Assembly: GCA_020641055.1 (NCBI GenBank)
Contig: CP067345.1
Coordinates: 923,317 to 987,316 of the forward strand
Direction of reading: 5' to 3'
Length of the DNA stretch: 64,000 nucleotides
From: Clostridioides sp. ES-S-0010-02
GTDB lineage: Bacteria > Bacillota > Clostridia > Peptostreptococcales > Peptostreptococcaceae
The notes below the pieces were generated by a model. It was not told where the DNA came from and ran no database searches. It worked only from the letters and a program-made list of their open reading frames with translations. Shown piece after piece: positions 49,952 through 64,000 of the stretch (the first letter of the stretch is position 1; each line of letters begins with the position of its first letter). The position numbers and the translations under genes were made by a program.

Positions 49952-49996
49952 ACATAGTGAAAATATAAAAAACTGTAGAATTTGGAGGATATTGTT

Positions 49997-51196
49997 ATGA
50001 AGTCAGCTTATAAAGGCTATGAAGCTTATAGTTATTTAGAAAAGGGAAAAGATATCTCATCTATTGAGATGTGTAAAGGAGATAAGAGAGTAAAAGAATA
50101 CCTTATCGAGTTAGATGATATTCAAGAAGCTAAGGTTAAAAATATAGTGGATGACAAAATATTTATATCACTACATGAACATCCAGTTTTATTTCCAGAA
50201 CACTTAGAAAGAGATATATTTGAATACAATAGAGAGGGTAAACAAAGATGTGCTTATGAAGCATTATCAAGAGGATATTACGATGCTATATTTGATAATT
50301 TAATGGATGGTGTATGTACAATAACATCAAGCTCAGGATGGAAGTGGGATGATATATTAATAGATTTAGGTATGAGATTATGTGACTTAGCACACCAAGA
50401 TTTTGTTATAAAGTGTGAAAAAGTAGAAGATATATACAGAGCAAAAAAAGAAGGAAAAGTGGCCTTGATACCTACTTTAGAAGGAGCTGCACCAATAGAA
50501 AATGAACTTGATAGAATAGATATTTTGTATGGATTTGGCATAAGGTTAATGGGTATAACATATAGTGAATCTAATGCATTGGGTTCAGGATTGAAAGAAG
50601 AAAAAGATGGTGGACTTACGAATTTTGGTAGAAAAGCTGTTGAAAGAATGAATAAGATTGGAATGGCAATAGATTGCTCTCATGTTGGAGTTCAAACGAC
50701 ACTTGATGTTATAGAACACAGTAAGGACCCAATAATATTGAGTCATGTTGGGGCAAGAAGTCTGTGGAACACAAAGAGATTAACGCCAGATGAAGTACTA
50801 ATAGCATGTGCGAAAAAGGGTGGGGTTATAGGTGTAGAAGCAGCACCACATACTACAATAACTGAAAAAAACAAAGAACATTCAATAGAGTCATTTATGG
50901 AACATTTTGAGTATATTAAAAATCTAGTAGGGATAGACCATGTGGCTTTTGGACCAGATACAGTATACGGTGACCATGTTAAATTACATTCAGTGTTAGC
51001 TGCTAAATTTGATATTAAAAAAATAACTGGGACAAAGGAGCATCCTAAAGTAGAGTATGTAAAAGGTCTTGAAAATCCAACTGAAACTTCAAAAAATATT
51101 GTCAGATATTTAGTAAAACATGGATATAGTGATGAGGAAATAGAAAAGGTGTTGGGTGGAAACATACTTAGAGTATTGAATAAGGTTTGGAAATAA
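49997..51196 (+). CDS. Membrane dipeptidase-family (M19) hydrolase
   Basis: A 399-residue zinc peptidase of the renal-dipeptidase family, which often accepts dipeptides with a C-terminal D-residue. Seen: the metal site in ISLHEHPVLF (replacing the usual HxD), AIDCSHVGVQTTLDVIEHSKDPIILSH type His ligands (quoted in part: CSHVG and ILSHVGA), and DHVAFGPDTVYGDH near the C-terminus. No signal peptide is present, so it is cytoplasmic. An in-frame TTG at 49982 overlaps GGAGG; ATG 49997 is 8 bases after it. It is the first gene of the sigma-54 operon. Confidence 0.86.
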   Translation: MKSAYKGYEAYSYLEKGKDISSIEMCKGDKRVKEYLIELDDIQEAKVKNIVDDKIFISLHEHPVLFPEHLERDIFEYNREGKQRCAYEALSRGYYDAIFDNLMDGVCTITSSSGWKWDDILIDLGMRLCDLAHQDFVIKCEKVEDIYRAKKEGKVALIPTLEGAAPIENELDRIDILYGFGIRLMGITYSESNALGSGLKEEKDGGLTNFGRKAVERMNKIGMAIDCSHVGVQTTLDVIEHSKDPIILSHVGARSLWNTKRLTPDEVLIACAKKGGVIGVEAAPHTTITEKNKEHSIESFMEHFEYIKNLVGIDHVAFGPDTVYGDHVKLHSVLAAKFDIKKITGTKEHPKVEYVKGLENPTETSKNIVRYLVKHGYSDEEIEKVLGGNILRVLNKVWK

Positions 51197-51246
51197 GGCT
51201 TAAATGTTTTAATAAAATTTGAGGATTTATAGGGAGGTTTTTTGCA

Positions 51247-51942
51247 ATGGATTATTTAAAATTAGCCAATCATCCACTTTTGTGGATAGCAAGTACAGTA
51301 GCTGTATCAATAGTAGTAGTACAATCTCTTGTATTTGCTATAAAATCTTGTAAAGTTGGGAAGACGATGGGAATAACTGATAAGCAAATAAAATCAGCTA
51401 TTAAGAGTAGTGCTATTTCAGCTATAGGCCCATCAATGACTATATTTGCTGGGATGGTTTCACTTATAGTAACTATGGGTGGACCTATAGCATGGATGAG
51501 ATTATCATTTATAGGTTCTGTAATTTTTGAATCTATGTCAGCTGGGTTTGGAACAGATGCTTTAGGGATAACTTTAGGTTCTCCTGAGATGACAAAAGTA
51601 GCATTTACAAATGCAGTTTGGACTATGATATTAGGTTCTTTAGGGTGGATAATATTTACATTATTGTTTGGGCATAAGTTAGATAAAATAACGAATGTTA
51701 TTTCTAGTGGTAAGAAATCATTTATACCAATAATATCTGTAGGAGCAATGTTAGGTTCATTTGCATACCTAAATGCTGATAGAGTGTTGCGTTTTGACAA
51801 TGGAACAATTGCATGTATAAGTGGAATGATAATAATGGTAATACTTTGTATGATTGAAAAAAAGAAAAATATAAAATGGCTGAGAGAGTGGGGTCTTACA
51901 ATATCAATGTTTAGTGGGATGATAATAGGTTCAATAATATAA
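51247..51942 (+). CDS. DUF5058-like multi-pass membrane protein
   Basis: A 231-residue membrane protein with about six transmembrane segments, matching what I recall of the DUF5058 family. Conserved-looking polar patches sit in the membrane: IGPSMTIFAGMVSLIVTMGGP and the loop FESMSAGFGTDALG. No ATPase or periplasmic binding domain is present. Its neighbour is a second membrane protein of nearly equal length (225 residues), so the two may be the halves of a heterodimeric transporter for the peptides or acyl-amino acids handled by the flanking hydrolases. The substrate is unknown. Confidence 0.8.
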   Translation: MDYLKLANHPLLWIASTVAVSIVVVQSLVFAIKSCKVGKTMGITDKQIKSAIKSSAISAIGPSMTIFAGMVSLIVTMGGPIAWMRLSFIGSVIFESMSAGFGTDALGITLGSPEMTKVAFTNAVWTMILGSLGWIIFTLLFGHKLDKITNVISSGKKSFIPIISVGAMLGSFAYLNADRVLRFDNGTIACISGMIIMVILCMIEKKKNIKWLREWGLTISMFSGMIIGSII

Positions 51943-51954
51943 GGGGGGAGTTTT

Positions 51955-52632
51955 ATGAGTAAAGTAAAATCTATATACAATGAAGAGTACTTACCTTTTA
52001 TGATAAGGTATGGTAGATTGACATTATCTTTAGGTATTATAGCAGCATTAGTTCCTGGAATAATTTTAAGTTTTGGATTTGGTCTTATGCCTCCAATATC
52101 AGCATTATTAGCAAGTACAATGGCAATAGTTAGTATGAGCGCACCAAACTACATAATAGAGCCAGTTTCTTATTCACCAATTTTAGGGATACCAGGAACT
52201 TATATGAGTTTTCTTTCTGGAAATATATCTAATATGAGACTGCCATGTTCAATAGCAGCTCAAAAAGCAGCAGAAGTTGAATCTGGAACAGAAGAAGGTT
52301 CAATAATATCTACTATAGGAATAGCTGTATCTATTCTAGTAAATATAAGTATTTTGACTTTTGGAGTAATTTTAGGAGGAAGTGTGTTGTCTAAAATACC
52401 ACCTGAAGTAGTAGAAAAATTGAATTTAATCTTACCAGCTCTATTTGGGTCAGTGTTTGGACAAGTTTTTTTACAAGATAAAAAACTAGGATTAGTAGCA
52501 ATTGTAATAGCTGTATTGACTATTATATTATCAAAGCAAGGTATAATACCACAATCTTTAGTAGTTCTTATATGTGTATTTGGTACTATATTGATTGCAA
52601 GAGTTATGCATAAAGATAAACTTAGAGACTAG
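51955..52632 (+). CDS. Uncharacterised membrane protein, probable partner of the DUF5058-like protein
   Basis: A 225-residue protein with about six transmembrane segments. I do not recognise the family. Notable segments are SAPNYIIEPVSYSPILGIPGT and SGNISNMRLPCSIAAQKAAEVE in the middle, which look like a conserved substrate or interaction loop. It begins 12 bases after its neighbour, with a strong GGGGGGAG. The last codons and stop are followed by a near-exact 26-base tandem copy. Confidence 0.75.
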   Translation: MSKVKSIYNEEYLPFMIRYGRLTLSLGIIAALVPGIILSFGFGLMPPISALLASTMAIVSMSAPNYIIEPVSYSPILGIPGTYMSFLSGNISNMRLPCSIAAQKAAEVESGTEEGSIISTIGIAVSILVNISILTFGVILGGSVLSKIPPEVVEKLNLILPALFGSVFGQVFLQDKKLGLVAIVIAVLTIILSKQGIIPQSLVVLICVFGTILIARVMHKDKLRD

Positions 52633-52663
52633 TAAAAAAGGATAAACTTAGAGGCTAGTAAAA
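52615..52663 (+). repeat. 26-base tandem duplication across a stop codon
   Basis: GATAAACTTAGAGACTAGTA at 52615 is repeated with one change (GAGGCTAG) at 52641, period 26. The first copy holds the last codons and stop of the membrane protein gene; the second lies in the intergenic gap. It looks like a slippage duplication. Confidence 0.8.
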
Positions 52664-52744
52664 TTAAAGAAGTAAAAAGTTTAAAATATAAAGAATTATA
52701 GTAAAGGCTACTGCAATAAAATTATATTTTAAGAGGTGAATAAT

Positions 52745-54346
52745 GTGGCATATGATTTAGTTTTAAAAAATGGATTTATAGTAGATGGTACTGGAGAAAA
52801 TGGTTTTTATGGAGATATAGCTATAAAAAATAATTTAATAGTAAGAATAGATTCTGAGATAAATGATGATACAAATAAAATGATAGATTGTCATAAAAAA
52901 GTTGTAACACCTGGATTTATTGACCCTCATGTTCATGAAGAAATAGTAGCAATACTAGATGGTAAATTTGAAAAATTCCTAAAACAAGGTGTTACAACAA
53001 CTATAAATGGTAATTGTGGTCACTCTATAACACCATATTCTTCTGAAAATATATATGAATATATGTATAAAAATGGTCTATTACTTGAAGAAGAAAAAAA
53101 GTATCTTATAGATAAAAATAAGCATTGGGATAGTTTTATAGAATATTGTGACCTTATATCTAAGAGTGGAATAGCTATTAATATGGGATTTTTATTGGGT
53201 CATGGGACTATAAGATGGAGTGTTATGGGAGGGTCTAAAGATAGACCTCCTACAAAAAAAGAAAAAAATGAAATTACAGATATAATAAATGATGGCATGA
53301 AAAGTGGTGCTTTTGGAATATCTACTGGATTGGCATATATACCAAGTAAGTATGCTGATATTGATGAACTTGTTGATATTGCAAAGTTAATTAAGGAACA
53401 TGATGGTATATATACATCCCATATTAGAGATTACATAGGAAGATATAATGCAGTAAAAGAAACTATAGAGGTAGGTCAAAAAAGTGGTGCTAGAGTCCAA
53501 GTATCACATTTAAGTCCAGTTGAAATAGAAGCCTTTGATGAGATATTAAAAGCTAGATACAATGGTGTTGATATAATGGTTGATACAGTACCAAGAAGTT
53601 CTGGACATTGTATGAAGAAAAAAAGAGTACTTCAATTTATTATGGCAATATCATCTAGTTTGTTTGAATTAGGTATGGATGGAGTTATGGATGCTCTTAG
53701 TAATGAAGAAGGAAGAGCTTTGATATTAAAAGAGGCATTTATACTTGGAGATAGAGGAAGTATAATACTTCTAAATACCAATGATATTGATATGGAAAAG
53801 AAATCAATACGTGAAATAGCTATGCAAAAAGGTATAGATGAAAATAAGCTATTACTAGATTTACTTTTATATGGAGATGAAGAACTTATATTTTGCCTAG
53901 GAGGAATGTACAGGGGAGATTTCCCTGATAAATTACATGATAAAAAGATAATAAATAATCCATTTGTTATGGTTGGTTCAGATTGTTTGTTTAGTGTAGG
54001 TGGAGATATGTCATGGTTTGAGCTTCAAAGAAGAGGGGCATTTCCAATTTTCTTTGATATGTATAAAAAATCAGGTGTAAGATTGGAAGAAGTAGTAAGA
54101 AGGGTAACTTCATTACCAGCTAACCAGTTTAAAATAAAGGATAGAGGTATACTTAAAGAGGGTAAAATAGCTGATATAGCGGTTATTGATATGGAAAACT
54201 ACGGCTATCCTAGGTCTGAAGAGATTGACTTCTCAAATCCACAGTTATTAGCCAAAGGTGTTGAATATGTAATTGTAAATGGAAAAATTGCATTAGAAGA
54301 AGGTAAAGTTACTAAAAATCCATGTGGTGAAGTATTAAAAAGATAG
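52745..54346 (+). CDS. N-acyl-D-amino-acid deacylase (D-aminoacylase family)
   Basis: A 533-residue amidohydrolase. Metal and active-site features: GFIDPHVHEE (HxH), the Cys ligand in TTINGNCGHS, SHIRDY, VQVSHLSP, and the catalytic Asp in VGSDCLFSVGG; the beta-sandwich composite domain returns near the C-terminus (ILKEGKIADIAVID). The reaction is removal of an acyl group from N-acyl-D-amino acids. GTG 52736 overlaps AAGAGGTG; GTG 52745 is 6 bases after it and gives MAYDLVLKNG. With the M19 peptidase it suggests salvage of D-amino-acid-containing compounds such as cell-wall peptides. Confidence 0.88.
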   Translation: MAYDLVLKNGFIVDGTGENGFYGDIAIKNNLIVRIDSEINDDTNKMIDCHKKVVTPGFIDPHVHEEIVAILDGKFEKFLKQGVTTTINGNCGHSITPYSSENIYEYMYKNGLLLEEEKKYLIDKNKHWDSFIEYCDLISKSGIAINMGFLLGHGTIRWSVMGGSKDRPPTKKEKNEITDIINDGMKSGAFGISTGLAYIPSKYADIDELVDIAKLIKEHDGIYTSHIRDYIGRYNAVKETIEVGQKSGARVQVSHLSPVEIEAFDEILKARYNGVDIMVDTVPRSSGHCMKKKRVLQFIMAISSSLFELGMDGVMDALSNEEGRALILKEAFILGDRGSIILLNTNDIDMEKKSIREIAMQKGIDENKLLLDLLLYGDEELIFCLGGMYRGDFPDKLHDKKIINNPFVMVGSDCLFSVGGDMSWFELQRRGAFPIFFDMYKKSGVRLEEVVRRVTSLPANQFKIKDRGILKEGKIADIAVIDMENYGYPRSEEIDFSNPQLLAKGVEYVIVNGKIALEEGKVTKNPCGEVLKR

Positions 54347-54463: not shown

Positions 54464-55072
54464 CGTAATAGTAATAGATATTAATTTATAGCAATAATAA
54501 AAAGCATGAGTAATAATAAATATACAAAAAATAATTTACTTTTATAATAAAAAATTAAGATTTTTATTTATTGAAATATGTAGAAAAATTGGGAAAATAA
54601 ATGGTTATAATTTTGAAAAATAAATTTTTTGTAAGTATGTAAAGATAAACTTTTTATAAAAAAATGTTAAAAAAATATCTAATAGAAGAGAATTTAAATA
54701 TCAGAGAATGAGAAAATAATAAAAAATAATTATTTTTTTTATATATATTAAAATAATATTGTATTATAAAATATATATACTATGTCTGATTTAATTAAAT
54801 AAACAATAAAATATTTATATTTATCCAATAATTAAAATTTTTATGATTATTATATATATCTTTATTTATTATATTTACTGAAATAGTGTTATATGGCTAA
54901 AATAAGAAGTTGTATATATTTTATAGAAATAAATATTAAACTGAACTTCGATAATAAAATAACAAAAATTTGAAAATTAAAGTATTTTAATACTGATTTT
55001 ATTCTACAAATTGATTATTATTTTTACTTTAATAATTCTAAATAAAACTAAAATTAAATTGTCAGAATAATC
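54464..55072. other. 600-base AT-rich gene-free stretch
   Basis: No open frame with a ribosome-binding site, tRNA or convincing hairpin was seen. Base composition is even more AT-rich than the rest. It separates the sigma-54 peptidase operon from the heterocycle-type operon and could mark an insertion boundary. Confidence 0.4.
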
Positions 55073-55101
55073 TTGACAGTATAAAATCGTGACTGTATAA
55101 T
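55073..55101 (+). promoter_or_regulatory. Consensus sigma-A promoter of the permease/molybdenum-enzyme operon
   Basis: TTGACA (55073-55078), exactly 17 bases, TATAAT (55096-55101): both boxes are perfect. Such a strong promoter implies control after initiation, in line with the long leader that follows. Confidence 0.9.
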
Positions 55102-55107
55102 ACAATT

Positions 55108-55354
55108 AAAAATCGGATTAATTACCTAGCTTACAAAAAATAAAAATGATGCTAAAAGCAAACGTTTTATTTTTTTAGTAACTAATCCTCCGCCACTCCT
55201 TAAATTAGAGCTTTTCTAATTTCAAAATGTATTACTAAAACTTCATAATGTAACTGTGCAATATTTATTAGGCTCTAACTTTTAAGGTTACTAATAATTT
55301 ATTACATAGCTCCATACATTTGGCGGCAATGGCGGGAGCGATAAGGGGTAAGAT
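55108..55354 (+). ncRNA. Structured 247-nt mRNA leader, candidate riboswitch of unknown class
   Basis: Several stems are visible. AAATTAGA and TCTAATTT (about 55201-55222) make a perfect local hairpin. TTAGTAAC (55176-55183) can pair with GTTACTAA about 105 bases later. TTAGAGC (about 55204) can instead pair with GCTCTAA (about 55272), so alternative folds exist. CCGCCA (55188-55193) matches TGGCGG, which occurs twice near the 3' end (about 55321 and 55330), and CTCCTT (55195-55200) matches the AAGGGG ribosome-binding site. This suggests a switch that hides or frees the start site. I do not see the conserved core of the purine, TPP, SAM or Moco riboswitches. The folding is inferred by eye only. 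Confidence 0.5.
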
Positions 55355-56680
55355 ATGGAAAATTACAAGTATGGATTTAATGACAAGCCAAAGCTTCTAA
55401 CAGCAATACCGCTTAGTATGCAACATGTTTTTTCTGCTTTTGCAGGTACTATGTCAGGTGCTATTTTAGTAGCTGTGGGCATGGGTCTCTCACTAAGTGA
55501 GACTGCATTTTTGATTCAATGTTCGATGTTGATTGCAGGAGTGAGCACCATACTGCAATCTATGGGAATTGGACCAATAGGGTCACGGTTGCCAATTGTT
55601 ACTGGTGGAAGTTTCACCTTTGTAGCACCATTAATTGCCTTAAGTACAAATAATGATGTTGGTATTGCTGGAGCTTTTGGAGCAGTACTTGTAGGAAGTC
55701 TAGTTTTAACTTTAGTAGGACCTCTTGCAGTAAAATATTTACATAAATATTTTACACCTACTGTTACAGGAAGTGTTGTTTTGGCAGTAGGGTTATCACT
55801 TATGAGTTCTTCATTTGACTACGCAGTATCTTTTGATGCTCATGGACCTAATGTAGTTGCTAATTTTTCTTTAGCTATATTCACATTATTATTAACACTT
55901 ATTTTAAATCAATTTGGAAAAGGTTTTCTAAAAGTAGCATCCATAATAATTTCAATAGTAATAGGGTATGTAGTAGCAATAATATTTGGTATGGTTGACT
56001 TTTCTAGTATGGCACAAGCAAATTGGTTTGCAATGCCAAAACCTATATACTGGGGATTGGAGTTCAACTTGGGCGCTATTATAACCATATGTACAATTCA
56101 TATTGTTACAGTTATGGAAATAATAGGAGATACGACAGGTGTTGTCAGTTCTGTTGAAAACCGTCTACCTACACAAAAAGAATTGATGAGAGCTGTGAGA
56201 GCAGATGGAGTTGGAAGTTGTTTTGCAGCCTTGTTTAATGGGCTTCCAGTTATATCAGGTAGTCCAAACATAGGAATAATTTGTATGACAGGAGTTGCAA
56301 GTAGGTACATAGTAGCACTTGGAGGAGTAATGTTAGGCGTATTAGCATTTTTCCCAAAGTTTGCCCAGATATTAGCTTTAACACCAGACCCAGTTATTGG
56401 AGGAACATTAGTTATGATGTTTGGAACAATTGCATCATCAGGTATTAAGGTTATTGGAATGGGAAAGATGACAAATCGTAATATAACAATTTTAGCAGTC
56501 TCATTGGGCATTGGTATGGGTGGTTATTTTAATCAAGCTGCATTAGCATTTTTACCAAGCATTGTAGTCACTTTAATGACTGGTATATCTGGAACAGCTT
56601 TATTATCTTTAATACTAAATATTGTATTGCCTAAGGAAAAAGAAGATGTAGTGGAAAGTAAAGTAAGTTGTAAAGCTTAG
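55355..56680 (+). CDS. NCS2-family nucleobase (xanthine/uracil-type) permease
   Basis: A 441-residue membrane protein of the nucleobase-ascorbate/NCS2 family with fourteen short membrane segments. Motifs: QHVFSAFAGTMSGAILVAVG in helix 1, GSRLPIVTGGSFTFVAPL in helix 3, the substrate-site segment GDTTGVVSSVENR (about residues 260-272), and GLPVISGSPNIGI in helix 10. Family members import purines or pyrimidines with protons; relatives that take other fused-ring heterocycles are possible. It is the first gene after the structured leader. The following intergenic region carries three terminator-like repeats, so most transcripts may end after this gene. Confidence 0.9.
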   Translation: MENYKYGFNDKPKLLTAIPLSMQHVFSAFAGTMSGAILVAVGMGLSLSETAFLIQCSMLIAGVSTILQSMGIGPIGSRLPIVTGGSFTFVAPLIALSTNNDVGIAGAFGAVLVGSLVLTLVGPLAVKYLHKYFTPTVTGSVVLAVGLSLMSSSFDYAVSFDAHGPNVVANFSLAIFTLLLTLILNQFGKGFLKVASIIISIVIGYVVAIIFGMVDFSSMAQANWFAMPKPIYWGLEFNLGAIITICTIHIVTVMEIIGDTTGVVSSVENRLPTQKELMRAVRADGVGSCFAALFNGLPVISGSPNIGIICMTGVASRYIVALGGVMLGVLAFFPKFAQILALTPDPVIGGTLVMMFGTIASSGIKVIGMGKMTNRNITILAVSLGIGMGGYFNQAALAFLPSIVVTLMTGISGTALLSLILNIVLPKEKEDVVESKVSCKA

Positions 56681-56691
56681 AGAATGTAATT

Positions 56692-56737
56692 CTAAAGGAT
56701 ATCCAAGAAGGAGCGCCTTGCTTCTATTTTTTTTACC
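56692..56737 (+). ncRNA. Tandem riboregulator element, copy 1 of 3
   Basis: Starts 12 bases after the permease stop. Order: AAAGG, the palindrome GGATATCC (56697-56704), AGAAG, conserved GAGCGCCTTG, CTTCT, then eight T. AGAAG and CTTCT close a hairpin whose conserved loop is GAGCGCCTTG. It resembles an intrinsic terminator with an unusually conserved loop and upstream palindrome. Confidence 0.7.
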
Positions 56738-56791
56738 AAAAATAGAATTGAACTTTGAAGGAAACCTAATAGCTTGCATTTGAGCAGAATA

Positions 56792-56841
56792 TAATCTGAA
56801 AGGATATCCAAGAAGGAGCGCCTTGCTTCTATTTTTTTTAC
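56792..56841 (+). ncRNA. Tandem riboregulator element, copy 2 of 3
   Basis: 105 bases after copy 1. TATAATCTGAAAGG leads into GGATATCC (56802-56809), then AGAAG, GAGCGCCTTG, CTTCT and eight T. It is identical to copy 1 from AAAGG to the T-run, while the spacer between the copies is unrelated, so the element itself is under selection or was recently copied. Confidence 0.7.
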
Positions 56842-56900
56842 CCAAAAACCTTAAAAAACTAAATAATCAAAAGATATGATACTCATTTTAATAAAAGTAT

Positions 56901-56946
56901 AATCTGAAAGGATATCCAGGAGGAGCGCCTTGCCCCTCCTTTTTTA
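56901..56946 (+). ncRNA. Tandem riboregulator element, copy 3 of 3
   Basis: 108 bases after copy 2. TATAATCTGAAAGG and GGATATCC (56910-56917) are kept. The stem has changed on both sides, to AGGAGG and CCTCCT, while the loop AGCGCCTTGC is kept; this compensatory change supports a real RNA hairpin. Six T follow. It lies 108 bases before the molybdenum-enzyme small subunit. Confidence 0.72.
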
Positions 56947-57054
56947 ACAGTAATTATGGATTTTACTTGTCAAAGGAGAGTAAATAACTTGGATAAATTA
57001 ATCAAAGATTAAATTTCATAGAAAATATTAAAATTTAAATTATGTGGGGAGAAG

Positions 57055-57543
57055 GTGGAGATTATAGATGTTATTGAACTTGATATAAATGGCAGATTGA
57101 GAAAGGTGAGTATAAAAAAAAGCTGGACTTTACTTTATGTTTTAAGAGAAGTGTTTAATTTAACTGGAAGTAAGTGTGGATGTAGTACTGGTGATTGTGG
57201 AGCTTGTAAAATAATTTTAGATGGAGAAGCAGTTAATTCATGTCTGATTCTAGCAAGAAACGCAGTTGGGAAAAAGATATTGACAATTGAAGGGTTGTCA
57301 GATGGAATCAATATACATCCAATTCAACAAGCATTTATTGATTGTGGAGCTGTTCAATGTGGATATTGCACTCCAGGGATGATAATGTCGGCAAAAGCCT
57401 TACTAGACAAAAATCCAAATCCTTCTGAGGAAGATGTTAGAAAGTCTATAGATAACAATATTTGCAGATGTACAGGATATGTAAAAATTGTTGAGGCTAT
57501 ACTTTTATCAGCAAAAAGGATGGGGGGTATAACCTGTGAGTAA
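57055..57543 (+). CDS. Molybdenum hydroxylase small subunit, two [2Fe-2S] clusters (XDH/aldehyde oxidase family)
   Basis: A 162-residue electron-transfer subunit. The N-terminal plant-ferredoxin-like domain has GSKCGCSTGDCGACKIILDG and a later NSC; the C-terminal helical domain has QCGYCTPGMIMSAKALL and NICRCTGYVKI. All eight cluster cysteines are present. It passes electrons from the Mo site of the next gene product. The start is GTG 57055, close to GGGGAG; the short spacing leaves some doubt. The gene overlaps the large subunit by 8 bases. No FAD subunit gene is in the operon as seen. Confidence 0.92.
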   Translation: MEIIDVIELDINGRLRKVSIKKSWTLLYVLREVFNLTGSKCGCSTGDCGACKIILDGEAVNSCLILARNAVGKKILTIEGLSDGINIHPIQQAFIDCGAVQCGYCTPGMIMSAKALLDKNPNPSEEDVRKSIDNNICRCTGYVKIVEAILLSAKRMGGITCE

Positions 57544-59788
57544 TAAATTTAAAATTATTGGTGAGAGAGTCCCAATAAGAGATGCTGTACTTAAAGCTAC
57601 TGGCCAACTTAAATATACTGCGGATATGAAAATTCCAAATATGCTTTATGCTAAGGTTTTATTCAGCCCTATAGCGCATGCAAAAATTAAAAAAATAGAC
57701 ACATCAAAAGCTGAAAAATTAGAAGGTGTAAAAGCCATAGCCACTTATAAAAACTCACCTCAAAAAGTCTTTAATAGTGCCATGAGATTTTATGAACATG
57801 AGTTGCCAGAGGTTGAACATATCTTTGATGATACTGTTCGTTTTGTTGGTGATAAAGTTGCAGCTGTTGCAGCTGAAGATTTACAAACTGCTGAAAAAGC
57901 ATTGAAGCTTATTGAGGTTGAATACGAAGAATTACCATCAGTATTTAATCCAGAAGAAGCAATACAAGAGGGTGCATATCCAATCCATAAAGGTGGAAAC
58001 AAGCTTGCAGTAAGTGTACAACAGTGTGGAAATATTGAAGAAGCTATGAAAAAAGCTGATTATATTTTTGAAGATAAGTATACACTTCCAGCTATACATC
58101 ATGGTGCAATAGAAACTCATGTGGCTATTGCAGATTATGATTACAGTGGAAAACTTACTGTTTATAGTCCTAATCAAAATACTTTTGGCTTTAGGATAAT
58201 CTTATCTAAGTTATTTGAAGTACCAATGAATAAAGTTAGACTAGTAAGTCCAGCTATTGGAGGAGCTTTTGGAGGTAAATTAGAGATTACAATTGAGCCA
58301 ATTGTAGCATTATTAGCAAAACTATCAGGTAGGCCAGTTAAACTAGAACTTAACAGGAGAGAAACTATTGCTTCAACAAGAACTAGACATGGTGCAGTTG
58401 TATATCTAAAAACAGGTGTTATGAAAGATGGTCGAATTGTAGCACAAGATATGAAAGTTCTAACAAATACAGGAGCATATGCATCAAGTGCTTTAAATGT
58501 AATTGGAGCAATGAGTCATAAAGTATTTAAAGCATATAAGATTGAAAATATGAGATATACAGGAATACCAGTGTATACAAACACACCAATTGCAGGAGCA
58601 ATGAGAGGATATGGTTCTCCACAAGCTTTTTTTGCACAACAATCCCAACTAAATAAAATTGCAAAAAAACTAAATATGGATATTTTAAATTTACAGCTTA
58701 AGAACTTAGTTGAACCAGATGGAATAGACCAACGATTTAAAAGTCCTCATGGTAATCCAAGACCAATAGACTGTATAAAAAAAGGTGCTGAAATATTTGA
58801 CTGGAAAAAACAAATAAGACAGCAAAATGAATCAAATGGTAGGTTTTTAATTGGTGTAGGTATGGCAGTTGGTTCACATGGAAATGGATGCTTTGGGGCA
58901 CATAGAGATATAACAGCCTTAATGTTGAAAATGAATGAAGATGGTTCAGCTGTATTATATACAGGTACTCATGATATGGGAAATGCATCTGTAAGTGTCC
59001 AGGTGCAAATTATATCTGAAGTACTTGGAATAAGCCAGGAAAAAATAGAATGTATACAGGCAGATACAGAAGCATCACCATGGAATTTAGGAGATTACGC
59101 AAGTAGAGGAGTTTTTGTATCCGGAAATGCAGCTTTAAAAGTAGCAAACTCAGTAAAAAAAGAGCTTTTAAAAGAAGCATCCCAACTCTTAAAAGAGGAT
59201 GAAGAATATATAGAATTTAAGGACGATAGAGTTTATTCTATCAAAAATAACAACAAACAAGCCACTTTATGCGATGTCATGATACATGCTCAAAGGGTAA
59301 GTTTAAGAGAGATTATAGGAGCTGAAACTTTTGCATCTCAAACTGGAGCAAGTTCATATGGTGTACATTTTGCTAAAGTTGAGGTTGATACTAAACTGGC
59401 AAGTGTAAGAGTTTTAGAATATGTTGCAGTACATGATGTGGGTAAAGCTTTGAACCCAATGTCTGTAGAAGGTCAGATTGAAGGAGCAATTCAAATGGGA
59501 ATAGGATATGCGTTAACTGAAGCGCTTGAGTTTGATAATAGAGGAAAAATAAAAGCTAATTCATTTCGCTCGTATCATATGATAAAGGCTAGTGAAATGC
59601 CACAAATAAAAGTTGGAATGATAGAATGTGGAGAACCTGGAGGTCCATTTGGAGCTAAGAGTATAGGTGAATGTTCTGTTGTACCATCAGCACCAGCAGT
59701 AGCAAATGCAGTAGCAAATGCGTTAAACTGTGATTTTTATAGTTTGCCATTAAAGAAAAATATTTTAATGGATAATATAAATATTTAA
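57536..59788 (+). CDS. Molybdenum hydroxylase large (Mo-cofactor) subunit, XDH/aldehyde oxidase family
   Basis: A 750-residue catalytic subunit binding molybdopterin. Motifs in order: RDAVLKATGQLKYTADM at the start, QNTFGFRIILSKLF, the Mo-contact GGAFGGK (about residue 241), AMRGYGSPQ with the conserved Arg (about 360), TGTHDMGN, and the catalytic Glu in GAKSIGECS near the C-terminus. Family members add an oxygen from water to carbon next to nitrogen in heterocycles, or oxidise aldehydes. AMRGYG differs from AFRGFG of true xanthine dehydrogenases, so the substrate need not be a purine. The start is GTG, 8 bases after a GGATGGGGGG site. Confidence 0.92.
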   Translation: MSNKFKIIGERVPIRDAVLKATGQLKYTADMKIPNMLYAKVLFSPIAHAKIKKIDTSKAEKLEGVKAIATYKNSPQKVFNSAMRFYEHELPEVEHIFDDTVRFVGDKVAAVAAEDLQTAEKALKLIEVEYEELPSVFNPEEAIQEGAYPIHKGGNKLAVSVQQCGNIEEAMKKADYIFEDKYTLPAIHHGAIETHVAIADYDYSGKLTVYSPNQNTFGFRIILSKLFEVPMNKVRLVSPAIGGAFGGKLEITIEPIVALLAKLSGRPVKLELNRRETIASTRTRHGAVVYLKTGVMKDGRIVAQDMKVLTNTGAYASSALNVIGAMSHKVFKAYKIENMRYTGIPVYTNTPIAGAMRGYGSPQAFFAQQSQLNKIAKKLNMDILNLQLKNLVEPDGIDQRFKSPHGNPRPIDCIKKGAEIFDWKKQIRQQNESNGRFLIGVGMAVGSHGNGCFGAHRDITALMLKMNEDGSAVLYTGTHDMGNASVSVQVQIISEVLGISQEKIECIQADTEASPWNLGDYASRGVFVSGNAALKVANSVKKELLKEASQLLKEDEEYIEFKDDRVYSIKNNNKQATLCDVMIHAQRVSLREIIGAETFASQTGASSYGVHFAKVEVDTKLASVRVLEYVAVHDVGKALNPMSVEGQIEGAIQMGIGYALTEALEFDNRGKIKANSFRSYHMIKASEMPQIKVGMIECGEPGGPFGAKSIGECSVVPSAPAVANAVANALNCDFYSLPLKKNILMDNINI

Positions 59789-59921
59789 TGTTGTTTTATA
59801 CAAAAGAAATTAGTTATACAAAGTAAAAAGATATTTATTTAAAATACTTTAGATATTGAAATGTAAGACATTTTTCTAAATATAAGTTTGAATTATAAGA
59901 ATGTAGAGGATGTGATGGATT

Positions 59922-60656
59922 GTGAATTTAAGATTTAAAGATAAGGTTGTTGTGATAACAGGAGGAGGGCAAGGATTAGGGGCAGGATTTGCTTTAGATT
60001 TTGCTATTGAAGGAGCAACAGTAGTCTTAATTGGTAGAACTAAAAGTAAATTGGATAATGTTGCAGAAAGAATCATTAAATCTGGTGGTAAAGCCTTTGT
60101 TTCAGTTTGTGATGTAAGCAAACCAGAAGAAGTAGAAGTTTGTTTTAGTGAAGTAATAGATAAATTTGAGTGTGTAGATGTATTGATTAATAATGTAGCT
60201 CTCCATAAATCAGCTCCAGTAGTTGATACTACAATTGAAGATTGGGATGCTCAGATAAAGACTAATTTAAGTGGAACTTTTTATTGTACTAAGGCTGTTC
60301 TTAGAACAATGATTGATAAAAAGTATGGAAAAATAATAAATATTAGTTCTACAGCAGCAAAACATTTTTTTCCGGGTTTTGGGGCATATGCTGCTTCTAA
60401 AGGTGGGATGGTAAGTTTTACTCAAACTTTATCAGAAGAAGTAAAAGAGTATGGAATCAATGTAAATGCAATATATTTAGGTATGACTAATACTGAATAT
60501 ACAAGAAAAAGATTTGACTATGATGATGCAGTTACGATACCACTTGAAGAAATGTTGCAAGTGGAAGAAGTATCAAAAGTTGTAACTTTCTTAGCATCTG
60601 ATGAAGCAAGTCCAATAATGGGAGCTGCAATTGATGTATGTGGGAAGAAGGCATAA
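59922..60656 (+). CDS. Short-chain dehydrogenase/reductase
   Basis: A 244-residue classical SDR. Cofactor motif TGGGQGLGAGF (about residues 12-22), NNVA in place of NNAG, and the catalytic Ser in NISSTAA with YAASK (Tyr and Lys). IGRTKS after strand 2 leaves NAD versus NADP open. The C-terminal substrate region (NTEYTRKRFDYDDA) is not of a known subtype to me. By context it oxidises or reduces a hydroxyl or keto group on the pathway intermediate; pterin side-chain reductases belong to this superfamily. The start is GTG. Confidence 0.9.
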   Translation: MNLRFKDKVVVITGGGQGLGAGFALDFAIEGATVVLIGRTKSKLDNVAERIIKSGGKAFVSVCDVSKPEEVEVCFSEVIDKFECVDVLINNVALHKSAPVVDTTIEDWDAQIKTNLSGTFYCTKAVLRTMIDKKYGKIINISSTAAKHFFPGFGAYAASKGGMVSFTQTLSEEVKEYGINVNAIYLGMTNTEYTRKRFDYDDAVTIPLEEMLQVEEVSKVVTFLASDEASPIMGAAIDVCGKKA

Positions 60657-60683
60657 ATAAAATATATATTGAGAGGTATAAAG

Positions 60684-61643
60684 ATGATAAGTTTAAACAA
60701 GAAAGCTATGGTGGTAGTAAGAGAGATACTGGAAGATGCAGAAGCATTAGGGTGTGAAGTTGTTAAGATGGATTGTGGAGCAACTATAATTGATATGGGA
60801 TTAAATTGTAGTGGAAGCTGGAAAGCAGGTGTTTTATTTACTAGGGCTTCTATAGGCGACCTAGGAACAGTATCATTAGGAGATTTTAAATTAAATGATG
60901 AATATTCTTTCTCAGCAGTTGAAGTATTTATAGATAAACCATTGATTGCATGTATGGGTTCACAGATTGCTGGATGGAAACTTGGAGAAGGTGAATTTGC
61001 AACTATTGGGTCAGGACCAGCAAGAGCTTTAGCAAGAGTTAAATCAGACTGGTATTTTGAAATGACTCCATATAAAGACACTTATCATGAGGCAGTCCTA
61101 TGTATCCAAGATATAAAATATCCTAATGATGAAACGGTCTTAGAGGTTGCAAATGCTTGTAAAGTAAAACCAGAAGACACATATATATTAATTTCACCAA
61201 GTACATGTATTGTAGCATCAATGCAAGTGTCAGCAAGAATTATTGAGCAAGTATGCCATAAGATGTTTGAAAAAAACTTTGATGCAGGTCAAATTGTACT
61301 TGCTAGAGGAAAAGCACCAATCGCACCTGTATTAAAAGATGAACTTAAGACTATGGGAAGAATAAATGATGCATTGATTTATGGTAGTGAAACTGAGTTT
61401 TGGGTGGATTCGACTGATACTGCTATTGCAAAAACTATACACCAGTTGGCAGGGAAAACTTCGTCTCCAAATTATGGAGAGTTGTTTGAAGATGTATTTG
61501 AGAAGGCAGGAAGAGACTTTTTCTATGTAGACCATGATGTACACTCAATAGGCAAAATACAGATACATAATATAAATACTGGGAAATCATTTTCGGCAGG
61601 AGAAATAAATTACTCAGTACTTGAAAAAAGTTTCTTAAAATAA
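60684..61643 (+). CDS. Methenyl-tetrahydromethanopterin cyclohydrolase (Mch) homologue
   Basis: A 319-residue protein that matches archaeal and methylotroph Mch along its length. Seen: VVKMDCGATIIDMGLNCSGSW near the start, FTRASIGDLGTVSLG, the signature IGSGPARAL (about residues 115-123), and SPSTCIVASMQVSARIIEQ (about 180). Mch opens the five-membered imidazolinium ring of methenyl-H4MPT. Clostridia are not known to make H4MPT, and no other H4MPT gene is in the window, so a different cyclic amidine or pterin-like substrate is likely. A TTG at 60669 is in frame, but GAGAGG lies after it; ATG 60684 is 7 bases downstream. It sits 27 bases after the SDR gene. Confidence 0.88.
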   Translation: MISLNKKAMVVVREILEDAEALGCEVVKMDCGATIIDMGLNCSGSWKAGVLFTRASIGDLGTVSLGDFKLNDEYSFSAVEVFIDKPLIACMGSQIAGWKLGEGEFATIGSGPARALARVKSDWYFEMTPYKDTYHEAVLCIQDIKYPNDETVLEVANACKVKPEDTYILISPSTCIVASMQVSARIIEQVCHKMFEKNFDAGQIVLARGKAPIAPVLKDELKTMGRINDALIYGSETEFWVDSTDTAIAKTIHQLAGKTSSPNYGELFEDVFEKAGRDFFYVDHDVHSIGKIQIHNINTGKSFSAGEINYSVLEKSFLK

Positions 61644-61679
61644 ACAACTTAAAAATTTATTGATTCAGGGGGAGATAAG

Positions 61680-62660
61680 ATGGCATTAGGTAAGTTAAGA
61701 TTAGAAAAATTATACCATGACATGGTTATGATTCGCAGATTTGAAGAAGTAATAGAAGTATATGCTGCCAATGGAACAATACCAGGATTTGTTCATTTAA
61801 GTATAGGGCAAGAAGCTTGTCAAGCAGGCATAGTTGATGCACTTAGAAAAACAGATTATAAATTTCCAGACCATAGAGGTCATGGAACTATAGCACTTTG
61901 TGGTACTGACCCAAAACTTGTAATGGCAGAAATTTTTGCTAAGGCTACAGGAATAAATGGTGGTAGAGGCGGTTCAATGCATATAAATGATATTGAATGT
62001 AGAAATATGGGGTTTAATGGAATACAGGGTTCAACTATGGTAACTTGTCTTGGTACAGCTTTTGCATCTGTGTATAAAGAAACAGATGATGTTACAGCAG
62101 TATTTCTAGGAGATGGAACTTTAGGAGAAGGAACTTGCCACGAAAGTCTTAATATGGCAGCAACATGGAAACTTCCTATAATATATTGCCTACTTAATAA
62201 TCAATATGCTATATCTACACACTATACAGATTCACATCCTCAAAAAGAATTAAAAACTTGGGGCGAGGGGTATGAGATTCCAAGTTATAGGGTAGATGGA
62301 AATGATGTAGAAGCAGTAATTGAGATAGTGGAAATAGCAGCAGATAGGGCAAGAAAAGGTGAAGGACCAACTTTAATAGAATTTCTCACTTATCGCTGGC
62401 AAGGTCATTTTGCAGGAGACCCAGCAGCATATAGACCTGAAGAAGAAGTTAAGTATTGGAAAGATAGAGACCCAATCAAGTTAACTAGAAAGATACTTAT
62501 TGAAAGAGAAGGTATGTCAGATGAATCACTTAAGCAAATAGAAGAAGAAATAGAGGCTGATGTTCAAGAAATGCTGAGATTCTCATTGGAGAGTCCATCA
62601 CCAGATATTAAAGATGCAGTTACACACACATATGTTGATAGAGAGGTGGAGATAAGATAA
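61680..62660 (+). CDS. acoA-like: Thiamine-dependent 2-oxoacid/acetoin dehydrogenase E1 alpha subunit
   Basis: A 326-residue E1 alpha chain. TPP-binding motif GDGTLGEGTCHESLN with NN in CLLNNQYAISTHY; the start LYHDMVMIRRFEE and HLSIGQEA, then DHRGHGTIALCG and GRGGSMHI are closest to acetoin dehydrogenase (AcoA-type) E1 chains. With E1 beta it cleaves an alpha-keto or acyloin bond and loads the acyl group on the lipoyl arm of E2. In this operon it probably acts on the keto product of the SDR rather than on pyruvate. GGGGGAG precedes the start. Confidence 0.92.
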   Translation: MALGKLRLEKLYHDMVMIRRFEEVIEVYAANGTIPGFVHLSIGQEACQAGIVDALRKTDYKFPDHRGHGTIALCGTDPKLVMAEIFAKATGINGGRGGSMHINDIECRNMGFNGIQGSTMVTCLGTAFASVYKETDDVTAVFLGDGTLGEGTCHESLNMAATWKLPIIYCLLNNQYAISTHYTDSHPQKELKTWGEGYEIPSYRVDGNDVEAVIEIVEIAADRARKGEGPTLIEFLTYRWQGHFAGDPAAYRPEEEVKYWKDRDPIKLTRKILIEREGMSDESLKQIEEEIEADVQEMLRFSLESPSPDIKDAVTHTYVDREVEIR

Positions 62661-63637
62661 TGGGAAGAAAACTTTCATATGGAATGGCAATAAATGAAGC
62701 ACTTCATCAAGCTATGGAAAATGATGATAGAGTTTTTATACTAGGTGAAGATGTAGCTAAAATGGGTGGAGATTTTGGGATTACTAAAGGAATAATGGCT
62801 AAGTGGCCAAATAGAATAAAAGATACAGCTTTATCAGAATCAGCTATATTGGGATTATCAAATGGTGCAGCACTTTGTGGACTAAGACCAGTTCCAGAGA
62901 TAATGTTTGCAGATTTTTTGGGAGTTTGTTTTGACCAACTTGTAAATAATGCAGCAAAATTAAATTTTATGTTCCAAGGAAAAGCACATTGCCCAATTAC
63001 TGTTCGTGCTGTACAGGGAGGTGGTATACGCTGTGCATATCATCATTCAGTTTGTGCAGAGTCATGGTTTATGAATACACCTGGGCTTGTAGTAGTTTCA
63101 CCAACAACACCTTATGAAGCTAAAGGGATGTTGCTTTCAGCTATAAAAAACGATAATCCTGTATTATTTTTAGAACATAAAATGCTATACAATGTCAAAG
63201 GAGAAGTGCCAGTTGAGCCATATGAAATTCCTCTATATGAAGCTGAGATTGAAAAAACTGGAAGTGATATTACTATAGTAGCTACTCAAATGATGTTAGG
63301 GTTAGCACATAAAGCAGCAAGTCAACTTGAAAAAGAAGGGATTAGTGTAGAGATAATCGACCTTAGAACTGTATTTCCTTATGATAAAAAAACTATAGTA
63401 GAGTCAGTTGCGAAAACTAGTCGATTGGTTATTGCTCAAGAAGGTCCAAGAGTTGGAGGATGGGCAGCTGAAATATCTGCAATGATAAATGAAGATGTAT
63501 TTGAGTATCTAAGTGCACCAATAAAAAGAGTTACATCAATTGATGCTCCAGTAGCATATGCACCAGTTTTAGAGGATTTTGTTTTACCAAAATTAGAAAA
63601 TCTAATTAAGGCTTGTAAGGAAGTTATGCAATATTAG
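62660..63637 (+). CDS. acoB-like: Thiamine-dependent 2-oxoacid/acetoin dehydrogenase E1 beta subunit
   Basis: A 325-residue E1 beta chain: LSYGMAINEALHQAM start, the TPP-activating Glu in FILGEDVAKMGGDFGITKG, and FPYDKKTIVESVAKTSRLVIAQEGPRVGG in the C-terminal domain. It forms an alpha2beta2 tetramer with the preceding subunit. The start overlaps the alpha-chain stop by one base (TAATG), so translation is coupled. Confidence 0.93.
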   Translation: MGRKLSYGMAINEALHQAMENDDRVFILGEDVAKMGGDFGITKGIMAKWPNRIKDTALSESAILGLSNGAALCGLRPVPEIMFADFLGVCFDQLVNNAAKLNFMFQGKAHCPITVRAVQGGGIRCAYHHSVCAESWFMNTPGLVVVSPTTPYEAKGMLLSAIKNDNPVLFLEHKMLYNVKGEVPVEPYEIPLYEAEIEKTGSDITIVATQMMLGLAHKAASQLEKEGISVEIIDLRTVFPYDKKTIVESVAKTSRLVIAQEGPRVGGWAAEISAMINEDVFEYLSAPIKRVTSIDAPVAYAPVLEDFVLPKLENLIKACKEVMQY

Positions 63638-63654
63638 TCAGGGGAGGATAAACA

Positions 63655-64000
63655 ATGATTACAGAGGTTAAGATGCCGAAGTTTGGTCTTTCTATGGAGG
63701 AAGGAACAATTGGCACATGGTTGATTGAAGAAGGAAGTGTAGTAAATAAGGGTGATGAAATTTTAGAAGTTGAAACTGACAAGATTACTAATACTGTTGA
63801 AGCACCAGAAAGTGGGGTATTGAGAAAAAAATTTTTTGAAGAGGGCGATATTGCTAATTGTGGAGAACTAATTTGTATAATTGCAGAAGCCAATGAAGAT
63901 ATTAGTGGATTTAATTTGATAGATAAAACTGATAATGAAAAAGAGGTAGATATTTTAAGTTTAGAAAATGCAACTAAGAAAAAAGATTTAAATATAGACA
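63655..64000 (+). CDS. acoC-like: Dihydrolipoamide acyltransferase E2 component (3' end cut by window)
   Basis: ATG 63655 follows GGGGAGG by 8 bases. The first 80 residues are a lipoyl domain: ITEVKMPKFGLSMEEGTIG, the lipoylated Lys in EVETDKITN, then SGVLRKKFFEEGD. A charged linker follows (about residues 85-115), and the frame is open at the window end, so the acyltransferase core lies outside. It completes the E1-E2 order of acetoin/2-oxoacid dehydrogenase operons. An E3 gene is expected beyond the window. Confidence 0.9.
   Translation, partial: MITEVKMPKFGLSMEEGTIGTWLIEEGSVVNKGDEILEVETDKITNTVEAPESGVLRKKFFEEGDIANCGELICIIAEANEDISGFNLIDKTDNEKEVDILSLENATKKKDLNID

Follow-up and report, generated by a model that had tools for sequence, protein, structure and literature searches.

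Among the described systems closest to the locus analyzed here are the selenium-dependent purine catabolism of Clostridioides difficile and the bacterial catabolism of riboflavin. The locus is a 17-kb block of genes around a homologue of methenyltetrahydromethanopterin cyclohydrolase (Mch). It begins near the right end of the window, a 64,000-nucleotide (nt) stretch of Clostridioides sp. ES-S-0010-02 (CP067345.1, positions 923,317-987,316 of the forward strand; assembly GCA_020641055.1, genome G000), and continues beyond it. We hypothesize that the block is an operon for the uptake and degradation of a 6-substituted pterin, either biopterin or a compound closely related to it, and assign this reading a probability of about 0.5.

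The purine system of C. difficile and the block share molybdenum (Mo) hydroxylases of the xanthine dehydrogenase (XDH) family. The accessible part of its description reports five Mo hydroxylase (xdhA) loci in C. difficile 630 and R20291, four of them close together and one fused (PMC11448449). Of the six in genome G000, four lie at 2.05-2.08 Mb, one with a long frame of 854 amino acids (aa) at 0.71 Mb, and the sixth within the block. Judged by place and size, the first five would be the five of that paper. Since 630 and R20291 have five such loci and G000 six, the two strains probably lack the operon. Riboflavin catabolism resembles the proposed pathway in the breakdown of a pteridine-related vitamin ring and in a thiamine-dependent step. 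In contrast to the block, it begins with ribose removal to lumichrome and a P450, and the accessible part of the text names neither Mch nor an acyl-CoA-forming complex (PMC12746152).

In the literature searched by title and start of abstract, which covers the field partially and subscription papers little, neither such an operon nor pterin catabolism in these bacteria is described. Biopterin and neopterin occur in the host as cofactors and as markers of inflammation; a gene set that would let gut anaerobes consume them has, to our knowledge, not been described. If our reading is correct, the block provides such a candidate set for Clostridioides and bacteria of the Oscillospiraceae type, some of the genes now annotated as methanopterin one-carbon (C1) enzymes have another role, and two leader RNAs are candidate sensors.

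Organization of the block

The block and its genes, all on the forward strand within the window, are as follows (ORF, open reading frame; coordinates are those of the window, continued past its end).

54649..64000, + strand: left part of the 17-kb presence/absence block, which ends at about 71651, beyond the window (flanks joined in G001 and G003)
55355..56680, + strand: NCS2a permease, xanthine/uracil family (ORF, Pfam, NCBIfam)
57055..57543, + strand: [2Fe-2S] (FeS) subunit of the Mo hydroxylase (ORF, Pfam, NCBIfam)
57536..59788, + strand: Mo-binding subunit, XdhA-like (ORF, Pfam, NCBIfam, paralogue comparison)
59922..60656, + strand: short-chain dehydrogenase/reductase (SDR) (ORF, Pfam, NCBIfam)
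60669..61643, + strand: Mch homologue, clade B (PF02289, alignment, tree)
61680..62660, + strand: thiamine-dependent dehydrogenase E1alpha (ORF, Pfam, NCBIfam, paralogue comparison)
62660..63637, + strand: thiamine-dependent dehydrogenase E1beta (ORF, Pfam, NCBIfam, paralogue comparison)
63655..64920, + strand: E2 acyltransferase, cut by the window end at 64000 (Pfam on the next stretch)
64978-66456, beyond the window: amidohydrolase, PF01979 (Pfam)
66464-67492, beyond the window: RibD_C-like reductase (Pfam, a modest 30.5 bits against a cut-off of 24.1)
67551-68951, beyond the window: E3 lipoamide dehydrogenase (TIGR01350, above cut-off)
69071-69418, beyond the window: small TIGR03792 protein
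69507-70925, beyond the window: NCS2b, second NCS2 permease
70936-71625, beyond the window: flavin reductase, FMN reductase family

The spacing across the block is mostly short or overlapping. The FeS and Mo genes overlap by 8 nt and E1alpha and E1beta by 1 nt, and gaps of 12, 36 and 17 nt separate SDR from Mch, Mch from E1alpha, and E1beta from E2. The longest gaps are those between NCS2a and FeS (374 nt), Mo and SDR (133 nt), E3 and TIGR03792 (119 nt), and TIGR03792 and NCS2b (88 nt). An earlier note on this DNA had described the tightly spaced same-strand order NCS2, FeS, Mo, SDR, Mch, E1alpha, E1beta, E2, which is borne out by the ORFs, Pfam and the measured gaps; all eight genes were placed by Pfam where the note had put them, seven complete, plus E2. 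The note had delimited the candidate operon to 55355..64000. Its gene set stands, but its right end does not: position 64000 is the end of the window, E2 continues across it, and six more genes follow to about 71625.

Two genomes of the genus that lack Mch, G001 and G003, carry an empty site, in which the left and right flanks of the block meet within 1 to 19 bases. Their sequence runs up to L001:1946-1965 and continues from L001:18969 (the window coordinate is the L001 coordinate + 52683). The missing piece, L001:1966-18968, is 17.0 kb long and comprises 14 genes and the leader. Because precisely these 17 kb are absent from two genomes of the genus, the block behaves as one unit; the comparison is neutral between its gain and its loss. 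The G+C content of the block is 0.319, compared to 0.289 and 0.281 in the flanks.

Conservation of the gene set

With all Mch types counted, Mch-positive genomes amount to 6 of 8 in the genus, 6 of 71 in the family, 1 of 391 in an even sample of the class, 8 of 300 in the family of a Pseudoflavonifractor carrier, and 26 of 398 in the phylum. A first scan with the window Mch identified 12 loci, three of them in Clostridioides and the rest in Pseudoflavonifractor, a Clostridium sp. and metagenome-assembled genomes (MAGs). The phylum scan contributed stretches from 19 of its 25 other Mch genomes, with some but not every Mch copy of these included; G816, G854, G917, G965, G976 and G1035 were excluded. 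Altogether, 47 distinct loci were compared, after L034-L037 had been dropped as repeats, and co-occurrence was judged by gene neighbourhood throughout.

The clade of the window Mch is composed of the window and 18 further loci, from 17 genomes including that of the window; we set its border, and it is one group in the tree. E1alpha and E1beta are present at all 18 further loci, E2 and SDR at 16, the amidohydrolase and RibD_C at 12, FeS, Mo and E3 at 10, NCS2 at 9, and TIGR03792 at 8. These counts include incomplete loci, cut by contig ends (L012, L013, L017, L018) or by the end of the stretch (L066). At the two loci outside the E2 count, L013 and L018, the beginning of E2 is visible at the contig end. 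Dispersal of the genes in other genomes had been named beforehand as a test of the operon. Mch, E1alpha and E1beta occur together in 19/19 loci of the clade, window included, and the amidohydrolase and RibD_C in 13/19, once in rearranged order. Chance neighbourhood of the genes was rejected based on the 17-kb empty site and this conservation over other loci.

Other loci vary the theme. Locus L101 of the distant genome G907, which belongs to a different family within the phylum, contains most of the set, rearranged: ABC ATPases, amidohydrolase, RibD_C, lipoate ligase, Mch, E1alpha, E1beta, E2, GntR, Mo, FAD and FeS, with no SDR seen. Its Mo subunit is 33% identical to that of the window. L018 and L019 are second loci in two genomes and combine SDR, E1 and Mch with BMP-type ABC genes; no Mo enzyme is present there within the stretch examined. 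At L011, L013, L015 and L017, a GntR/UTRA-type regulator lies upstream in place of the leader elements described below.

The Mch homologue

Mch proteins form a tetrahydropterin-binding family. The window Mch matches PF02289 with 335.8 bits (cut-off 25) and shares 35-37% identity over the matched length with the solved Mch structures 1qlm, 4fio and 4gvq. Arg183 and Glu186 (A. fulgidus numbering) are kept in 59 of 61 aligned rows, including the window; the other two rows, 271 and 252 aa long, represent shorter Mch2-like proteins. At position 140, all 17 clade-A rows carry Glu, and all 42 full-length clade-B rows, that of the window among them, carry Gln. Arg183 and Glu186 are catalytic residues of Mch.

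A tree of 57 distinct sequences (four duplicates of the 61 rows dropped), read after re-rooting, separates the two clades with an ultrafast bootstrap support of 93-100. Clade A contains archaeal Mch, eight Bacillota loci with FTR- and FmdA-like genes, and six Bacillota loci without those partners in the stretch examined (L061-L064, L092, L100). Clade B contains the window type and the remaining paralogues, and the 19 window-type rows have a bootstrap support of 96. The window Mch differs from the known Mch in its separate clade, in Gln for Glu140, in a genome with no FTR match, and in its place beside E1/E2 and an amidohydrolase.

Related Mch operons and the proposed substrate

Operons around related Mch genes provide the evidence for a pterin. 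The type II loci (L026, L028, L030, L032 and, in part, L033) encode a LacI regulator, a DeoC/LacD aldolase, an FGGY kinase and a flavin reductase beside Mch, as well as three alcohol dehydrogenases and a short Mch2, with BMP-type ABC genes at three loci. These assignments derive from Pfam on representatives, and two of the zinc alcohol dehydrogenases were recognized by Pfam, the third by eye. In all three type V loci (L104-L106), the dihydroneopterin aldolase FolB adjoins BMP importer genes and is accompanied by a flavin reductase and Mch. Two of the three also have a similar amidohydrolase and an iron alcohol dehydrogenase, and one has an aldehyde ferredoxin oxidoreductase. The FolB gene beside clade-B Mch in G867, G803 and G1116 is a second copy besides one elsewhere in each genome. 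Genome G888 has its best FolB match, with 97 bits compared to about 51 bits at two other places, about 3.4 kb from an Mch-E1-E2 cluster, from which a pterin-binding-domain protein is about 6.6 kb away. L096 and L097 also have a pterin-binding-domain protein near Mch.

Gene content suggests that these operons are other ways to cut and oxidize a side chain around Mch. The exchange of E1/E2 for FolB and of the Mo hydroxylase for the aldehyde ferredoxin oxidoreductase around a constant Mch, together with the recurring amidohydrolase, points to a pterin with a 6-side chain. FolB and the pterin and isoxanthopterin deaminases are further described systems close to the block, and the operon amidohydrolase belongs to the same superfamily as 2paj, which we take to be isoxanthopterin deaminase. 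The best solved relative of the RibD_C-like protein is 5xv0, presumably Rv2671 with dihydrofolate reductase activity. The earlier suggestion that a pterin such as biopterin fits is upheld at the level of the class: pterins have the best support, from the second copies of FolB and from the amidohydrolases that adjoin related Mch genes. Based on gene content, we give pterins slightly better than even odds as the substrate class; biopterin itself is a tentative and rather doubtful choice.

In the proposed pathway, the NCS2 permeases would import the pterin, and the SDR would oxidize a hydroxyl group of the side chain, which would yield an alpha-hydroxyketone. A precedent for this side-chain step is sepiapterin reductase, likewise an SDR. 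The E1/E2/E3 complex would then cleave the alpha-hydroxyketone by thiamine chemistry to an acyl-CoA (acetyl-CoA in the case of biopterin) and 6-formylpterin. The Mo hydroxylase may oxidize the aldehyde or a ring carbon, the amidohydrolase may remove the 2-amino group, and the RibD_C-like enzyme may reduce the ring. The Mch-like enzyme would hydrolyze a C-N bond of the reduced ring; this is a guess from the chemistry of the family. The order of the last steps is likewise a guess, and so is the ring opening that the earlier note proposed for Mch. Energy would be gained from the acyl-CoA via an acyl phosphate, and expression is possibly gated by the two leader RNA elements.

Several observations weigh against this reading. 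The FolB family that adjoins clade-B Mch in other genomes is missing from the window operon, where E1/E2 would replace it, and the sole FolB of G000 is at 2.88 Mb. FolB is also found near 3 of 14 clade-A Mch loci, where it presumably serves cofactor synthesis, and therefore nearness to FolB alone is no proof; because of these loci and the lone, distant FolB of G000, the weight rests on the second, linked FolB copies. Among NCBIfam models, the amidohydrolase matches best N-ethylammeline chlorohydrolase and 5'-deoxyadenosine deaminase, all matches shown being below cut-off. The window Mch scores as a true Mch (TIGR03120, 301.7 bits over a cut-off of 228.8). No FAD subunit gene lies beside the window Mo subunit. 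The claimed link of the Mo enzyme to the rest holds in part: Mo and FeS are present in only 11/19 loci of the clade, window included and some of them cut by contig ends, and the locus of G007 keeps NCS2a, Mch, E1, E2, amidohydrolase and RibD_C while FeS, Mo and SDR are missing from it, as are E3 and the genes after it to the right of RibD_C. The G007 locus argues against an essential Mo enzyme. Finally, purines could be an equally good fit for the families of the Mo enzyme and the NCS2 permeases.

A catabolic unit of the same kind might act on a purine-like or other fused N-heterocycle with an oxidizable side chain instead of a pterin, which we consider unlikely. Both NCS2a and NCS2b match best a xanthine permease model, below its cut-off, and the Mo subunit scores best on xanthine dehydrogenase models, also below cut-offs (XdhA, 638.3 of 780; XdhC, 172.7 of 217); the best match of the FeS subunit is glyceraldehyde dehydrogenase gamma (185.1 of 290). 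The best solved relative of the amidohydrolase, 7ww2, is named 8-oxoguanine deaminase / hydroxydechloroatrazine ethylaminohydrolase, so the protein is nearest to 8-oxoguanine deaminase and triazine-type hydrolases. The BMP-type ABC importers of other Mch operons belong to a group that presumably imports nucleosides in other systems. In contrast, the second FolB copies and pterin-binding proteins of the related operons, and the binding of tetrahydropterins by the Mch family, favour a pterin. So does the GG.FGGK motif of the Mo subunit, which reads GGKL where the long paralogue L112 (853 aa) has GGKE, although three other paralogues have Asn or Gln; we assume that the Glu of this motif has a role in purine binding.

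Another Mo hydroxylase of the genome, L110 (G000:C1:2061099-2061803), shares the GGKLE and MRGYGSPQ motifs with the block subunit, and its substrate may be related to that of the block enzyme. L097 and L102 have Mch beside an ECF transporter with a riboflavin-type S component, two Amidohydro_2 proteins, an amidohydrolase and a DAO-type oxidoreductase. Together with the pterin-binding-domain protein of L097, their gene content suggests another probable Mch catabolic cluster.

The dehydrogenase complex and the proposed fate of the acyl-CoA

In the composition of its subunits, the block resembles acetoin and pyruvate dehydrogenase complexes: E1alpha, E1beta, E2 with one lipoyl domain and E3 are all present according to Pfam and NCBIfam. 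The earlier description of an acetoin-type dehydrogenase is correct as regards this complete set; the acetoin label is tentative. The best NCBIfam models for E1alpha, E1beta and E2 are pyruvate dehydrogenase ones, no acetoin-specific E1 model is among the NCBIfam matches of the block E1, and the acetoin E2 model reaches 105.2 of 307 bits on the block E2. Only an E1beta subfamily model exceeds its cut-off (324.8 vs 321), and E1alpha and E2 remain below every NCBIfam cut-off given. Unlike ordinary complexes of this type, the block E1 accompanies Mch in 19/19 loci, and it is 39% (E1alpha) and 46% (E1beta) identical to the other E1 pair of G000, at 94 kb.

It is improbable that genes for the catabolism of acetoin/2,3-butanediol or a 2-oxoacid lie by chance beside unrelated purine genes. 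Such catabolism would account for the E1/E2/E3 set and for a meso-butanediol dehydrogenase model among the SDR matches (175.9 of 270, below cut-off). It is opposed by the other E1 pair of the genome, by the association of Mch with E1 at every clade locus and with the amidohydrolase and RibD_C at 13 of the 19, and by the precise absence of the whole block from two genomes.

Salvage or detoxification of folate or another conjugated pterin, as opposed to catabolism that supports growth, has little likelihood. FolB, the pterin-binding-domain proteins and RibD_C-like proteins belong also to families of the folate or riboflavin type, and TIGR03792 and the flavin reductase could be protective. However, E3, along with a lipoate ligase and a phosphate acyltransferase in some carriers, points to acyl-CoA and energy yield. 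At L014 and L016, NCS2a and FeS are separated by a lipoate-protein ligase, and a phosphate acyltransferase (PF06130; L014 by Pfam, L016 by similarity) lies downstream, an arrangement that fits the use of acyl-CoA for ATP.

That the Mch is part of a real tetrahydromethanopterin C1 pathway, for which its TIGR03120 score, the kept catalytic Arg/Glu and the FTR/Fmd-linked Mch of other Bacillota would speak, is very improbable and was rejected, as FTR_C has no match in G000 while two control archaea match (Fmd, Fae and Mtd were not searched for in G000), the tree groups the protein with clade B and apart from the archaeal and FTR-linked Mch proteins, and no FTR- or FmdA-like gene lies near Mch in 18/18 type I loci. 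Because the genome lacks an FTR match and the clade is apart from archaeal and FTR-linked Mch, the window Mch does not look like one of C1 metabolism.

Bacillota loci L087-L091, L093, L094 and L103 have Mch beside FTR, Fmd/Fhc-type genes, a RimK-like ligase and a CitG-like protein. They are apparently genuine methanopterin-type C1 clusters, according to Pfam on L087 and similarity of the others. At L061, L062, L063, L064 and L100, a clade-A Mch shares the stretch with a polysaccharide deacetylase-family gene (Pfam on L062), and FTR is missing within that stretch. At L025, L027, L029 and L031 (Pseudoflavonifractor and MAGs), Mch is followed by a short Mch relative of about 215-301 aa; three of these loci have a GntR-like gene upstream, and no gene of the catabolic set was found.

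Leader elements

The leader contains a promoter-like site and two kinds of recurring elements.

55073..55101, + strand: promoter-like site TTGACA-17-TATAAT, matching at 12/12 positions and kept in six Clostridioides carriers
55309..55339, + strand: leader element A, hairpin GCTCC-ATA-CATT..AATG-GCG-GGAGC directly before the NCS2a ribosome site
56689..56727, + strand: leader element B copy 1, AAAGGATATCCA followed by a hairpin with the invariant loop AGCGCCTTGC and a T run
56794..56832, + strand: leader element B copy 2
56902..56939, + strand: leader element B copy 3, with other stem letters

The 288 bases from TTGACA-17-TATAAT to the NCS2a start are 96-98% identical among the Clostridioides carriers, and the sequence further upstream diverges. 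A promoter scan gave 97 sites against 94.7 expected in shuffles, which is no excess, and only the perfect match and the place favour the 55073 site. The element A motif CATACATTNGGCNGNAATGGCGGGAG recurs at L014 and L016 before their NCS2 gene and, repeats of the same places aside, at no other locus examined. Its closing pair changes from G-C to A-U between the lineages. Element A is no more stable than shuffles (z -0.91, -0.82).

The three copies of element B are located in the gap that separates NCS2a from FeS; at L014 and L016, a single copy occurs between NCS2a and the lipoate ligase. All three copies are kept in the G007 locus (L067) despite its missing genes. The loop is invariant, and three of the five stem pairs change on both sides. 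The covariation of 0.389, against 0.168 in shuffles, was reached by 0/500 of these, for eight distinct rows from two lineages and a structure drawn from the same rows; the number of two-sided pairs was reached by 108/500 shuffles and that of pair types by 147/500. Folding shows no clear excess over shuffles for element B (z -0.46, -0.19, -1.62) or for the whole leader (z -1.92).

No Rfam match comes near a gathering score in 20 kb searched at E up to 1 or in both leaders at E up to 10, and by this lack a known riboswitch class was ruled out for elements A and B. For element B, matches at E <= 0.001 were obtained in 90 of the 397 genomes searched, of which only the seed genome G456 (56.9 bits) was accepted. 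The next-best match (33.3 bits) lies within a 505-aa ORF. The alignments of matches 2-4 and 6 lack the conserved loop, and match 5 keeps part of it. Six matches were inspected as alignments and ten as sequence, a depth at which weak real copies could be missed. Elements A and B are candidate riboswitches common to one other lineage, a proposal to which the covariation lends partial support and the folding energies none.

It is also conceivable, albeit doubtful, that clade-B Mch marks an unrecognized guild of pathways by which anaerobic Bacillota, of the gut and elsewhere, degrade pterins. These pathways would combine a cyclohydrolase-type ring step with interchangeable side-chain modules (E1/E2 to acyl-CoA, FolB, or dehydrogenase, kinase and aldolase), and the Clostridioides block would be controlled by two new classes of riboswitch that sense pterins, one of which is present as three tandem copies.

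Neighbouring genes

A separate run of genes at 49982-54346 precedes the block and encodes an M19 dipeptidase, two membrane-type proteins and a D-aminoacylase-like amidohydrolase. The D-aminoacylase-like gene is present in 8/8 genomes of the genus.

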